Positions 6,743 through 54,297 of a stretch of DNA of 64,000 nucleotides are shown here, piece by piece. The stretch's first letter is position 1. Each line of letters starts with the position of its first letter. The notes beneath the pieces were generated by a model. That model made no database searches, had not been told where the DNA came from, and worked only from the letters and a program-made list of their open reading frames with translations. Origin of the DNA: Croceicoccus estronivorus (lineage in GTDB: Bacteria; Pseudomonadota; Alphaproteobacteria; Sphingomonadales; Sphingomonadaceae); the NCBI RefSeq assembly GCF_001625325.1, contig NZ_JRQQ01000010.1, forward strand, positions 62,001 to 126,000, in the 5' to 3' direction. The translations under genes and the position numbers were made by a program.

Positions 6743-6773
6743 AGACGAACTTGAAATGGTCTGGAGATATTTT

Positions 6774-7379
6774 GTGAGATCAGGAAATGGCCATGCCCAT
6801 GGCCGGGGTCGGCATCGCGGACACGGTGGGGCACAGGAAGCCTTGGAGCCTCATCACGGCGGAAGAGGCCTGCACCATCATGAAGATGGATTTGGCAACC
6901 GGAGACGTCGGCGACGGCGTTTGTTCGATCAGGGCGAGTTGCAATTGTTGCTGCTGAGCCTGACCGTAAATCAGGCGCGGCACGGATATGAAATGATCCG
7001 CGAAATCGAGGCGCGTTCTCACGGAGGATATTCGCCCAGCCCGGGCGTGGTATATCCTGCCCTGACCTTCATGGAAGAAGCAGGTTTGATTGCGGTTGCC
7101 GCTGACGAAGGCGCTCGCAAGAGTTACGCCGCCACCGGAGAAGGTGAGGGGCACGTCGCGGCACATGCGGACGAAGTGGCGGCGGTCGAGGCGCGGCTGG
7201 CGGCTCTGGCGGAAATGAGGGAACGCACCGATGCAGCGCCTGTCAAACGGGCAATGCAGAATCTCAAGACCGCGATTTTTGACCGCTTGTCGCAGGAAAA
7301 TGCTGGGCGAGACACGGTGTTGCAGGTCGCGGACCTGATCGATCAGGCGGCGCGCCAGATCGAGAGGATCGAAACATGA
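6774..7379 (+). CDS. PadR-family transcriptional regulator with His/Gly/Arg-rich N-terminus
   Basis: Residues from about 52 on form a PadR winged helix (GELQLLLLSLTVNQARHGYEM, then SPGVVYPALTFMEEAGLI). The preceding ~50 residues are rich in His, Gly and Arg (HGRGRHRGHGG, HHHEDG, RRRRRRR), typical of proteobacterial PadR proteins and possibly metal-sensitive, although that is inference. The C-terminal half is a helical dimerisation arm (MRERTDAAPVKRAMQ). I choose the GTG at 6774, preceded by GGAG at 7 bases, over the ATG at 6756. It overlaps DUF2218 by ATGA. Confidence 0.87.
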   Translation: MRSGNGHAHGRGRHRGHGGAQEALEPHHGGRGLHHHEDGFGNRRRRRRRLFDQGELQLLLLSLTVNQARHGYEMIREIEARSHGGYSPSPGVVYPALTFMEEAGLIAVAADEGARKSYAATGEGEGHVAAHADEVAAVEARLAALAEMRERTDAAPVKRAMQNLKTAIFDRLSQENAGRDTVLQVADLIDQAARQIERIET

Positions 7380-52174: not shown

Positions 52175-53272
52175 TTACCCCAGTTTCATGACCCAGCCGT
52201 ATTTATCTTCGATCGTGCCACGTTGGATGCCCACCAGCCGTTCACGGAACTTCTGAGTCAACTGTCCCGGCCCGCCCGATCCGATGGTTATTTCACCGTC
52301 ATGGCCAGCGAGCTTGCCAACCGGGGTAACGACGGCTGCTGTGCCGCAGGCGAATGTTTCGAGCAGACGACCAGAGGCGGCGTCTTCGCGCCATTGATCG
52401 AGGCTGTAACGTTCCTCATGAACGTCCAGTCCTTCTTCCCGCGCGAGAGTCAGCAGGCTGTTACGAGTGATTCCTGGAAGGATCGTTCCGGTTAGCGGCG
52501 GCGTAACGATTCGCCCATCGTCGAAAATGAAGAACAGGTTCATCCCGCCCAGTTCTTCAATCCACTTGTGCTCTTCCGCGTCGAGGAACACGACCTGATC
52601 GTGCCCGCGTTCGATCGCTTCGGCCTGGGGGACGAGGCTCGCGGCATAGTTCCCACCGCATTTCGCTGCGCCTGTTCCGCCCGGCGCGGCGCGGGAATAG
52701 TCGCGGCTGACCCAGATCGAGACCGCCGGGGCGCCTGATTTGAAGTAATTGCCGGCAGGGCTGGCGATTACGAGATATTTGTATTTCCTGGATGGGCGGA
52801 CACCGAGGAATGCTTCCGATGCAAACATGAACGGCCGCAGATATAGCGAGCCGCCTTCGAGGCTGGGGAACCACTCGCGGTCGGTTTCGACCAGCAGGCG
52901 GACCGATTCGACAAAAACGTCTTCGGGTAATTCCGGCATGGCCAGACGCTTGGCAGATTCGTTAAACCGCGCGGCGTTGGCTTCGGGGCGAAACAGCGCA
53001 AGCCCGCCATCGGCCTGCTTGTAGGCCTTCAGCCCTTCAAAGACTTCCTGCGCGTAATGAAGCACGGCGGTCGCCGGGTCGAGGCTGAGCGGTGCGCGCG
53101 GACCAATGGCCGCATTGTGCCAGCCCTTGCCCTCTTCCCAGTCAATCGTGACCATATGATCGGAAAACACCGAACCGAAACCGGGATTGGCGAGCGCCGC
53201 CACCCGCTGCGCTTCGCCGGTAGGCGCAGGGTGGGGAAGACGTTCGAATGTAATGCCCGGATTGTCGGCCAT
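52175..53272 (-). CDS. ilvE: Branched-chain amino acid aminotransferase
   Basis: A 365-residue fold-type IV PLP aminotransferase interconverting Leu, Ile and Val with their keto acids. The PLP lysine lies in GAAKCGGNYAASLVPQ near residue 200; EELGGMNLFFIF, LTGTILPGITRNSLLTLAREEG and the C-terminal GPGQLTQKFRERLVGIQRGTIEDKYGWV complete the BCAT pattern, closest to the 350-365-residue class. The ATG at 53272 with GAGAGG upstream is preferred to a GTG at 53284. A 500-base upstream region carries a short ORF and a terminator-like hairpin, listed separately. Confidence 0.95.
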   Translation of the reverse strand: MADNPGITFERLPHPAPTGEAQRVAALANPGFGSVFSDHMVTIDWEEGKGWHNAAIGPRAPLSLDPATAVLHYAQEVFEGLKAYKQADGGLALFRPEANAARFNESAKRLAMPELPEDVFVESVRLLVETDREWFPSLEGGSLYLRPFMFASEAFLGVRPSRKYKYLVIASPAGNYFKSGAPAVSIWVSRDYSRAAPGGTGAAKCGGNYAASLVPQAEAIERGHDQVVFLDAEEHKWIEELGGMNLFFIFDDGRIVTPPLTGTILPGITRNSLLTLAREEGLDVHEERYSLDQWREDAASGRLLETFACGTAAVVTPVGKLAGHDGEITIGSGGPGQLTQKFRERLVGIQRGTIEDKYGWVMKLG

Positions 53273-53387
53273 GGGGACAGCCACCTCTCATACTTTGTAG
53301 TGCCGCGCGCGGGTAAGCCGATGTGCGGTTTCGCGCAAGAGGGAAGGCATCAATCAGATCGAGAGGGACGTGGCATTCAGGCAATGA

Positions 53388-53424
53388 GAAAGGCCGCCCC
53401 GGCCCGTACCAGGTGCGGCCTTTC
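53388..53424 (-). promoter_or_regulatory. Terminator-like hairpin in the ilvE leader
   Basis: On the minus strand GAAAGGCCGC pairs perfectly (10 bp) with GCGGCCTTTC, followed by TCATTG. A competing upstream stem, GCGGC-ACTTCCTG-GCCGC (about 53433-53450), shares complementary segments with it, so the two can form alternative structures as in an attenuator. The hairpin lies about 115 bases before ilvE and 56 bases after the small ORF stop; it could equally be the terminator of a separate small mRNA. Confidence 0.6.
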
Positions 53425-53479
53425 GCATGGTCAGCGGCCAGGAAGTGCCGCCCACGAAGCCTTTATCGCTTTTGAATGC

Positions 53480-53536
53480 CTAGCGATAATGCTCCGCGCG
53501 GAACGTAGCCGACCTCTCTGCTGGACCATGAGACAT
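53480..53536 (-). CDS. 18-codon ORF with a perfect Shine-Dalgarno, ilvE leader
   Basis: The ORF reads MSHGPAERSATFRAEHYR and stops with TAG. It is preceded by the optimal SD at 53538-53551, with AGGAGG 7 bases from the ATG, which argues strongly that it is translated. It contains no Leu, Ile or Val codon, so classical branched-chain attenuation is unlikely. It may be a regulatory leader peptide for ilvE or an independent small protein with its own terminator. I do not recognise the sequence. Confidence 0.6.
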   Translation of the reverse strand: MSHGPAERSATFRAEHYR

Positions 53537-53537
53537 C

Positions 53538-53551
53538 GGATCACCTCCTTT
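53538..53551 (-). promoter_or_regulatory. 14-nt perfect anti-SD complement (ribosome binding site)
   Basis: AAAGGAGGTGATCC on the minus strand is complementary over 14 bases to the usual bacterial 16S rRNA 3' end (GGATCACCTCCTTT). Ordinary sites in this window match 4-6 bases. Such an extended match implies very strong or slow-release ribosome binding at the 18-codon ORF. Confidence 0.85.
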
Positions 53552-53685
53552 CGCGCTGTTTAGCCAAAGTCGCCGTTTTTTGCGGCTGGTCCGGGGTTTC
53601 TCCGAACCTGAGGACAATGTGATTCATGACGCGTTGCAACACAAGTCTTGCAATGATTTTTTTTGGCGTCAAAATCGGTATTTCG

Positions 53686-53713
53686 GGCCGGTTATCCACC
53701 GGCCTTTTTTCTT
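53686..53713 (+). terminator. Plus-strand intrinsic terminator with no upstream plus-strand gene
   Basis: GGCCGGT-TATCC-ACCGGCC (7-bp perfect stem) is followed on the plus strand by TTTTTTCTTTT. The nearest plus-strand gene upstream ends at 52140, beyond ilvE, so this may end an unannotated small RNA starting between about 53480 and 53640. It may also help end the minus-strand lipoprotein gene, but on that strand the T-run is missing. Confidence 0.65.
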
Positions 53714-53775
53714 TTCCCTCAAGTTCGCTCCCGCAGGCCGTCAGGCGACGCTTGCGCCCGAACTTGGGCAGCGGG

Positions 53776-54297
53776 TTAGCGACAGTCTTCGATTACGCGC
53801 GAAACCTCGACCCAACTGGGCAGGTAAAGCGTTGGGAGGCCTTGGACTTCCACTGCAAAGCGTCCCTTGGAAAACGCCATCGCATCAAGCAGCGGGTCGC
53901 GGGGCGCAAGCGAAGCGGTCACGCGTCCGGCATCCGGTCTTGCGTCAAGCAGGCGGGTAGTCGTCTCGGTAAGGATGCGCATGGGAACTGTTCCCGCAGC
54001 GGTCCCCGTACGGGACAGGAGGATGCGGCCGGAACCGCGCTCGCAGGTCATCGTGAATACGCTGGTGCCGCTGCCATAGGTGGCGCGGCTGGCAGCGTAG
54101 GACCAATCCCCTGGTGTACGCGGCGCATCCATCCAGTTGCTTGGCGCAGGGGGAGGTAGAGCCGGCTTTGGTGCCGGTTTCGGCGCTACCGGTGCCGGGG
54201 GCGGGGCGGGGGGCTGAGGTACACAGGCTGCTAGGGTGAACAGGGAGATGCCGATGAAGGCAGATGCAAGGCGTGTGGCGGCATGTTTGGCTATCAT
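53776..54297 (-). CDS. Predicted lipoprotein with proline-rich linker
   Basis: A 173-residue protein with a lipobox signal (FIGISLFTLAAC, lipidated Cys near residue 25), a Pro/Ala-rich linker (PQPPAPPPAPVAPKPAPKPALPPP), and a globular C-terminal domain (WSYAASRATYGSGTSVFTMTCERGSGRILLSRTG ... LPTLYLPSWVEVSRVIEDCR). The linker would span from the membrane anchor into the periplasm. The C-terminal domain recurs in sphingomonad hypothetical proteins as far as I recall, with no known function. The ATG at 54297 is preferred; an extension to 54474 would overlap tlyA. It is divergent from tlyA. Confidence 0.82.
   Translation of the reverse strand: MIAKHAATRLASAFIGISLFTLAACVPQPPAPPPAPVAPKPAPKPALPPPAPSNWMDAPRTPGDWSYAASRATYGSGTSVFTMTCERGSGRILLSRTGTAAGTVPMRILTETTTRLLDARPDAGRVTASLAPRDPLLDAMAFSKGRFAVEVQGLPTLYLPSWVEVSRVIEDCR

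Follow-up and report, generated by a model that had tools for sequence, protein, structure and literature searches.

The window analysed here, a 64,000-nucleotide stretch of Croceicoccus estronivorus DNA, carries on its minus strand a Shine-Dalgarno (SD) sequence of exceptional length, followed by a tiny open reading frame (ORF), a terminator-like hairpin and the gene ilvE. This arrangement raises the question of whether the segment is a leader through which ribosomes regulate ilvE, a gene whose functional product is a small protein, or an RNA gene that is independent of its neighbours.

Organisation of the element

The 14-mer AAAGGAGGTGATCC, read directly at 53551-53538 on the minus strand, is complementary to the 3′ end of 16S rRNA, as a sequence-only reading of the window had reported at the same coordinates. 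The G that precedes it extends the complement to GAAAGGAGGTGATCC, which is counted as 15 nt because the 16S genes in three alphaproteobacterial records (Alloyangia, Rhizobium and Sphingobium) end in ...GGCTGGATCACCTCCTTTCTAAGGA; the 16S 3′ end of the organism itself was searched for in its assembly and not found. AAAGGAGGTGATCC occurs exactly once in the window and once in the genome assembly, and nothing else in the window matches it with fewer than three mismatches, consistent with the earlier statement that this SD has no equal there. The ATG (53536-53534) lies one base past the 14-mer and 7 nt from GGAGG, the ideal placement that had been described, and opens a frame of 18 codons, MSHGPAERSATFRAEHYR, closed by TAG at 53482-53480; the encoded peptide is indeed devoid of Leu, Ile and Val. 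Read along the minus strand, GCGAAAGGAGGTGATCCGATGTCTCATGG... is followed by the ORF, a structured spacer, GGCCGCTGACCATG and the terminator-like hairpin (Table 1). The hairpin, in which 53424-53415 pairs with 53397-53388 over 10 bp ahead of TCATT, a weak T tract, had likewise been noticed and is the sole minus-strand terminator-like match in 53200-53780. The downstream ORF, starting at 53284, is ilvE as proposed (TIGR01123, 420.6 bits; cut-off 250). The predicted fold of 53383-53610 is much better than those of shuffled sequences (z = −5.99, 0/200 as good). A misplaced 16S end on the other strand was rejected as the source of the motif: what precedes GGATCACCTCCTTT does not resemble 16S sequence, and a search of the window with Rfam at gathering threshold gave no rRNA.

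On the plus strand, upstream of the promoter region of the element, 53685-53705 comprises a GC-rich hairpin with a strong T run that resembles a terminator. Elsewhere, a one-mismatch copy of the motif, AAAGGAGGTCATCC (G000:C20:48485-48498, locus L002), has no start codon at the expected distance and is probably unrelated.

Table 1. Features of the element, in window coordinates.
Feature	Position	Strand	Basis or remark
Palindrome-like −35 region of predicted promoter, CAAGACTTGT	53641..53650	-	CAAGNCTTG near GANTC in relatives; putative promoter role
GAATCACATT, CcrM-type GANTC running into predicted −10 region	53616..53625	-	GANTC position in relatives
Predicted transcript, ~227 nt	53383..53609	-	5′ end guessed from promoter, 3′ end from hairpin
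Extended SD GAAAGGAGGTGATCC, 15-nt complement of 16S 3′ end	53538..53552	-	read directly
18-codon ORF MSHGPAERSATFRAEHYR with TAG	53480..53536	-	read directly; length common among relatives
Long-range helix 5′ arm CATGGTCCAGC, inside ORF	53520..53530	-	mostly invariant pairs, one compensated change
Second 5′ arm segment GGTCGG; alternative partner CCGAT over start codon	53509..53514	-	helix counts
Inner hairpin 5′ strand TTATCGC; stop codon follows, in loop	53483..53489	-	predicted fold
Inner hairpin 3′ strand GCGATAA	53463..53469	-	predicted fold
Possible internal anti-SD CACTTCCT, pairs with AGGAGGTG in minimum-energy fold	53440..53447	-	prediction; not above shuffles in Sphingomonadaceae-type
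Long-range helix 3′ arm GGCCGCTGACCATG	53426..53439	-	exact in 25/28 aligned elements; one compensated change in second copy L032
Intrinsic terminator-like hairpin	53388..53424	-	read directly; hairpins in listed homologues

Conservation, distribution and genomic context

A blastn search with a 311-base query against 59 genomes of the order, its own included (35 from the same family and 24 from other families), recovered the element in 27 genomes, all within the 35 of its own family, and in none of the 24 others. A pattern search found it in 30/35 own-family genomes and in 0/83 from other families of the order. The exact 14-mer is present in 25 of the 28 blastn-found loci (27 genomes plus a second copy, L032) and in 23 of 30 model-found loci, L033 included; these two sets are less biased than the pattern-found loci, which carry the motif by construction. 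In the alignments the stretch reaching from the SD to the end of ATGTCTCATGG hardly varies; the middle and the terminator differ in sequence. The helices are maintained: across 28 sequences 95.4% of helix cells are paired, 54 cells are changed on both sides compared with 18.2 in shuffles (0/500 as high), and sliding the partner by 1-3 columns lowers pairing to 24-48%. The inner stem, with 7 of its 9 pairs, accounts for most of this covariation; the long-range arms vary little and show single compensated changes. The alternative hairpin across the start codon is compatible with 92% of cells but lacks covariation. The sequence-only reading had named loss of the SD, ORF or hairpin in relatives as an outcome that would overturn it; instead, relatives retain the SD, the ORF frame and the helices, and compensatory changes are seen. 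The feature is real and appears to be functional.

Across the class, the exact motif AAAGGAGGTGATCCNRTG occurs in 59/385 genomes, once in each, and a reversed control gave 0. A phylum-wide draw returned it in 35/67 class members and in 0/182 genomes outside the class. A chance SD is ruled out by this conservation together with the zero counts of the reversed controls. The distribution is patchy, as 326/385 class genomes lack the exact motif, and since two genomes (G014 and G070) hold two element types, the figure of one per genome covers the exact motif only. A scan of named genomes gave at least 117 loci. The 80 titles among the matches listed all belong to alphaproteobacterial groups, apart from three labelled only Proteobacteria; the taxon labels of the peptide types used below rest on these titles, and the other 37 of the 117 listed loci were typed by peptide alone. 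Complementarity to 16S among these 117 matches spans 14 nt (1 locus), 15 (54), 16 (14), 17 (41), 18 (6) and 19 nt (1). The base after the 14-mer is A before GTG in 53 of them and G before ATG in 48, and GTG starts accompany complementarity that reaches into the start codon itself.

Some loci depart from the common form. In L169 (Azospirillum sp. B21, 6758-6777) and L067 the motif precedes Azospirillum-like ORFs of 59 and 56 codons, respectively, that resemble exported small proteins with a signal peptide. The match in L182 lies beside a tRNA-like stretch and a 44-codon ORF, with no clear terminator, and is probably due to chance.

Two accounts of the locus had been offered from the sequence: either ribosome occupancy of the SD controls read-through into ilvE, or the element is a self-contained mRNA for a small protein. 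The first draws on the weak T tract and on ilvE itself, which follows the element on its strand both in the window and in 16 of the 27 blastn genomes, the organism's own included (tblastn). It is opposed by the remaining 11 of 27, in whose loci (at most 1.5 kb on either side, less at a contig end) tblastn found no ilvE, by a window peptide without Ile, Leu or Val codons, and by the orientation of the nearest downstream predicted gene among the 117 matches listed, which is on the same strand in 57, on the opposite strand in 52 and unassigned in 8, counts that come from rough gene calls weighted for codon-position GC. Attenuators of amino-acid biosynthesis share with the element a short ORF, alternative helices and a terminator before a biosynthetic gene, but the window element has neither regulatory codons nor a fixed downstream gene; a branched-chain attenuator was rejected on these grounds, in agreement with the view already taken that this is not the textbook case. 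The element is thus probably not an ilvE leader, and we regard control of ilvE read-through as very improbable, although read-through into ilvE may occur in this clade alone. The second account largely holds: the unit and its terminator-like hairpin are kept while the neighbours change, and the element has the appearance of an orphan small transcript carrying a terminator of its own.

The neighbours differ by group: Vut_1 and an RF-1-domain protein for the Rhodobacterales-type, an aminotransferase IV for the Sphingomonadaceae-type and an AMP-binding enzyme mostly in Rhizobiales. This context gave no function. The RF-1-domain protein, ArfB-like by size, is a close neighbour of the element at L107 (2223-2642) and 12 other loci, among them many of the Rhodobacterales-type and one from Hyphomonadaceae.

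A simple sigma-70 scan found no promoter at the window element. GANTC marks CcrM/GcrA promoters, and in 24/33 Sphingomonadaceae-type loci this motif is found in the bin that opens 100 nt before the SD, compared with 1-9 of 32 in further bins; CAAGNCTTG lies within 40 nt upstream of the GANTC in 20/32 such loci. In the VSH-type (Caulobacterales and many Rhizobiales) GANTC occurs within 50 nt in 12/27 loci compared with 0-3 in other bins, and no GANTC peak was seen in the Rhodobacterales-type or the MSS-type. From these positions we infer that the element has a GANTC-containing promoter. At the other end, a terminator-like hairpin, commonly ~120-185 nt past the SD, was found in the listed homologues with enough sequence (up to nine per group); as the hairpin caller returned the best candidate and ran without a shuffle control, terminators outside the window are only suggestive, with that of L106 incomplete and that of L182 doubtful.

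Reading frame, peptide and fold

Among the 117 matches listed, 116 have a complete ORF in the frame opening one nucleotide past the 14-mer, and 112 of these ORFs end after 14-26 codons; for the other two frames the figures are 21/115 and 20/112. The start is AUG in 58 of the 116 ORFs and GUG in 58, and among the same matches the stop is TGA in 57, TAA in 37 and TAG in 22. Dropping the requirement for TC behind the start yielded 39 loci; 30 of them end at 14-26 codons, a length reached by 6 and 5 in the other frames, and in 35 the second codon is TCN. Length is still more uniform among the 66 distinct MSHG-type elements, of which 58 have exactly 18 codons, with TAA (35), TGA (18) or TAG (5) as codon 19; two lack a stop within the stretch and probably represent the Azospirillum form. 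The spacer from the stop to the 3′ arm varies in this type from 2 to 131 nt, with 32 different lengths. The presence of a stop at codon 19 is modestly above the expectation from independence (0.88 vs 0.77).

The peptide itself follows a different pattern. Among close pairs, pN/pS is 1.35 in the Sphingomonadaceae-type (50 sequences, bootstrap 1.18-1.54), a value to be read as no sign of peptide constraint rather than as positive selection, since RNA pairing constrains silent sites and can inflate the ratio. The corresponding values are 0.85 in the Rhodobacterales-type (19 sequences, close pairs, 0.69-0.94), where weak peptide constraint is possible, 1.21 in the Bradyrhizobium-type (6 sequences) and 1.88 in the MSS-type (11 sequences, very wide). 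Codons 5-14 do not differ among six distinct Bradyrhizobium-type ORFs, silent sites included, which points to RNA constraint. These data bear on the proposal that the 18-residue peptide is the functional product. The conserved frame, start and stop are what such a gene would show, the Rhodobacterales-type ratio leans the same way, and the Caulobacter ribosome-profiling study of Schrader et al. (PMC4117421) describes two predicted non-coding RNAs as translated. The Sphingomonadaceae-type ratio and the Bradyrhizobium-type silent sites argue against it, however, as does the observation that the peptides of different groups have little in common beyond Met/Val-Ser, and a small-protein gene appears improbable. 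The earlier term 'small-protein mRNA' may therefore overstate the peptide, since no sign of purifying selection is seen on its sequence in the Sphingomonadaceae-type. Frame, length and stop are apparently conserved while the peptide shows no constraint.

In predicted folds the ORF can pair with the stretch before the terminator. Against shuffles, this pairing reaches z < −1.5 in 30/31 Sphingomonadaceae-type, 15/21 MSS-type and 14/26 VSH-type elements, and in 2/7 Bradyrhizobium-type, 1/20 Rhodobacterales-type and 2/8 other elements. For the window RNA, the form in which the SD is closed (AGGAGGUG with CACUUCCU) is predicted at −109.4 kcal/mol and the long-range helix form at −102.5 kcal/mol, i.e. 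7 less stable; when the SD is held single-stranded, the long-range form is predicted at −96.2 kcal/mol. In the best predicted fold of 59 MSHG-type elements, the SD core is paired in 25 and the long-range helix is present in 26. Two-state switching between such folds is plausible on these models. Self-sequestration of the SD is not universal: it exceeds shuffles in the Rhodobacterales-type and the Bradyrhizobium-type (mean z −1.7 in each) and weakly in the MSS-type (−1.2), whereas the Sphingomonadaceae-type (−0.1) and the VSH-type (−0.4) are no better than shuffles. Placement of the stop in the apical loop has a mean probability of 0.38 vs 0.10 in the Sphingomonadaceae-type and 0.27 vs 0.12 in the VSH-type; as a general rule it was rejected, given values of 0.00-0.05 in three other groups and an overall p = 0.085 (109 elements).

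Relationship to named RNAs and proposed role

The statement that no named element fits this locus proved wrong. At a permissive threshold the window element matches a single Rfam family, CC2171 (RF01867), a Caulobacter sRNA, at 43.2 bits (E 6e-8) and over the full length of the model (positions 1-159 of 159), a score below the gathering cut-off of 75 bits. That cut-off is exceeded by the second copy L032 (77.5 bits), a Rhizobium locus (91.5) and a Brevundimonas locus (86.1). Across 289 class genomes CC2171 has matches at E ≤ 0.001 in 61, 9 of them above the cut-off, and among 14 named control genomes it matched Caulobacter only. Of eight loci chosen from other groups, seven gave a model match at the element, with E from 1e-17 to 0.046. 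The weakest match was that of Rhodobacterales L098 (E 0.046), and Azospirillum L169 was not matched, so the case for homology among the order-specific types depends in part on their common layout. CC2171 resembles the window element in having AAAGGAGGUGAUCC, NUGUCUCAU, a later long-range helix and a terminator in the same order; it differs in that the window sequence scores below its cut-off and in being filed as an sRNA, although its consensus has a GUG one base past the SD. RF01867 is listed among predicted sRNAs of Mesorhizobium huakuii in PMC5596092.

In two own-family genomes, G014 (L032) and G070 (L047), a second, MSHC-type copy lies nearer to CC2171 (77.5 and 68.9 bits, respectively) and accompanies an MSHG-type copy or fragment.

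The layout of the element also corresponds to a class of small mRNAs with an extended SD, rreB and rreR, that Hahn et al. described in 2017 (RNA Biol 14:1353). The rreB RNA of Bradyrhizobiaceae is said to encode 14 amino acids from a GUG start behind a 17-nt SD, to bind 30S subunits and to be weakly translated, its transcript reportedly becoming more stable if a stop replaces the start codon; rreR, of Rhodobacter and Roseobacter, is said to encode 18 amino acids. Similar sites of at least 16 nt have reportedly been found in Caulobacterales, Rhizobiales, Rhodobacterales and Rhodospirillales, a list to which Sphingomonadales presumably does not belong. We take the 14-codon Bradyrhizobium-type and 18-codon Rhodobacterales-type ORFs found here to fit the 14-residue rreB and the 18-residue rreR, and since the published RNAs thus seem to be the representatives of this kind in Bradyrhizobium and Rhodobacterales, the kind has already been named. 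The window element shares the orphan small-mRNA layout with an SD matching the 16S tail, a tiny ORF directly after it, its own terminator-like hairpin and no fixed neighbour, as far as sequence can tell. Unlike rreB, it has a 15-nt rather than a 17-nt complement, AUG rather than GUG and a different ORF sequence, and its 15 nt fall short of the 16 nt or more reportedly asked of such sites. It is filed in neither group, given the 75-bit cut-off of CC2171 and the 16-nt limit, but resembles CC2171 and rreB/rreR and probably works in the same way.

We favour, with somewhat better than even confidence, the view that an alphaproteobacterial gene for a small, orphan, ribosome-regulated mRNA, whose peptide is a by-product, is represented here by its Sphingomonadaceae branch. 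Comparison supports this through the retained SD, start, frame, stop, helix and terminator-like hairpin, through neighbours that change, and through the lack of any sign of peptide constraint in the Sphingomonadaceae-type. Such a gene would make an RNA of roughly 150-230 nt. As its leader matches the whole 16S tail, it should bind 30S subunits unusually tightly and capture them; the start codon one nucleotide on would open a frame, usually of 14-26 codons, on which the ribosome would end at a clade-typical place, the peptide merely arising from its passage. The ORF would form one strand of the fold, with the other strand just before the terminator, and because these strands pair, ribosome occupancy would toggle the RNA between folds and so set its lifetime or activity. 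For the window element we infer 30S capture, fold switching and an effect on stability or targets. A trans-acting sRNA, in which the 3′ arm or another exposed stretch would pair with target mRNAs and translation of the ORF would gate its release, is an unlikely alternative. The filing of CC2171 as an sRNA is consistent with it, as are CACCUCC(U)-like stretches that directly precede the terminator in several Rhodobacterales elements. The near invariance of the 3′ arm, which it would also account for, is explained equally well by pairing with the ORF, however, and the 3′ arms differ between orders.

A ribosome-regulated small mRNA invites a broader and more tentative proposal, that CC2171, rreB, rreR and the MSHG-type elements are one ancient alphaproteobacterial RNA that measures or buffers free 30S subunits. 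Its hallmarks would be a leader matching the whole 16S tail, present once per genome where it occurs, a frame of set length and free sequence and, in some orders, a GANTC promoter tying it to the GcrA/CcrM cell-cycle circuit. Three points are apparently new here: the branch in Sphingomonadaceae, the proposal that CC2171 and rreB/rreR belong together, and the evidence that frame, length and stop are retained with no sign of peptide constraint; the last of these, the most informative, is drawn from comparative counts. If correct, this would unite a family filed in Rfam as sRNA with the extended-SD mini-mRNAs already published as one widespread gene, and the ORF would be a clear case of conservation for the act of translation and not for its product, so that catalogues of small proteins that score ORF conservation should handle such ORFs with caution. 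The exact SD-plus-start arrangement, once per genome where present, would also provide a testable handle on a natural near-perfect SD.

Other small alphaproteobacterial RNAs touch on the same pairing. The SisA-D sRNAs of Caulobacter (PMC12559287) are likewise built on SD-type pairing, but they carry an anti-SD motif and the window element carries the SD, the reverse arrangement. CcnA of Caulobacter, which is described as lying at the replication origin and for which a CCCC stretch is emphasised, was set aside. An 11-nt internal anti-SD, CGGAUCACCUCCG, is present ~112 nt downstream of the SD in L161, a Rhodospirillaceae locus, where it could close the SD of its own RNA.
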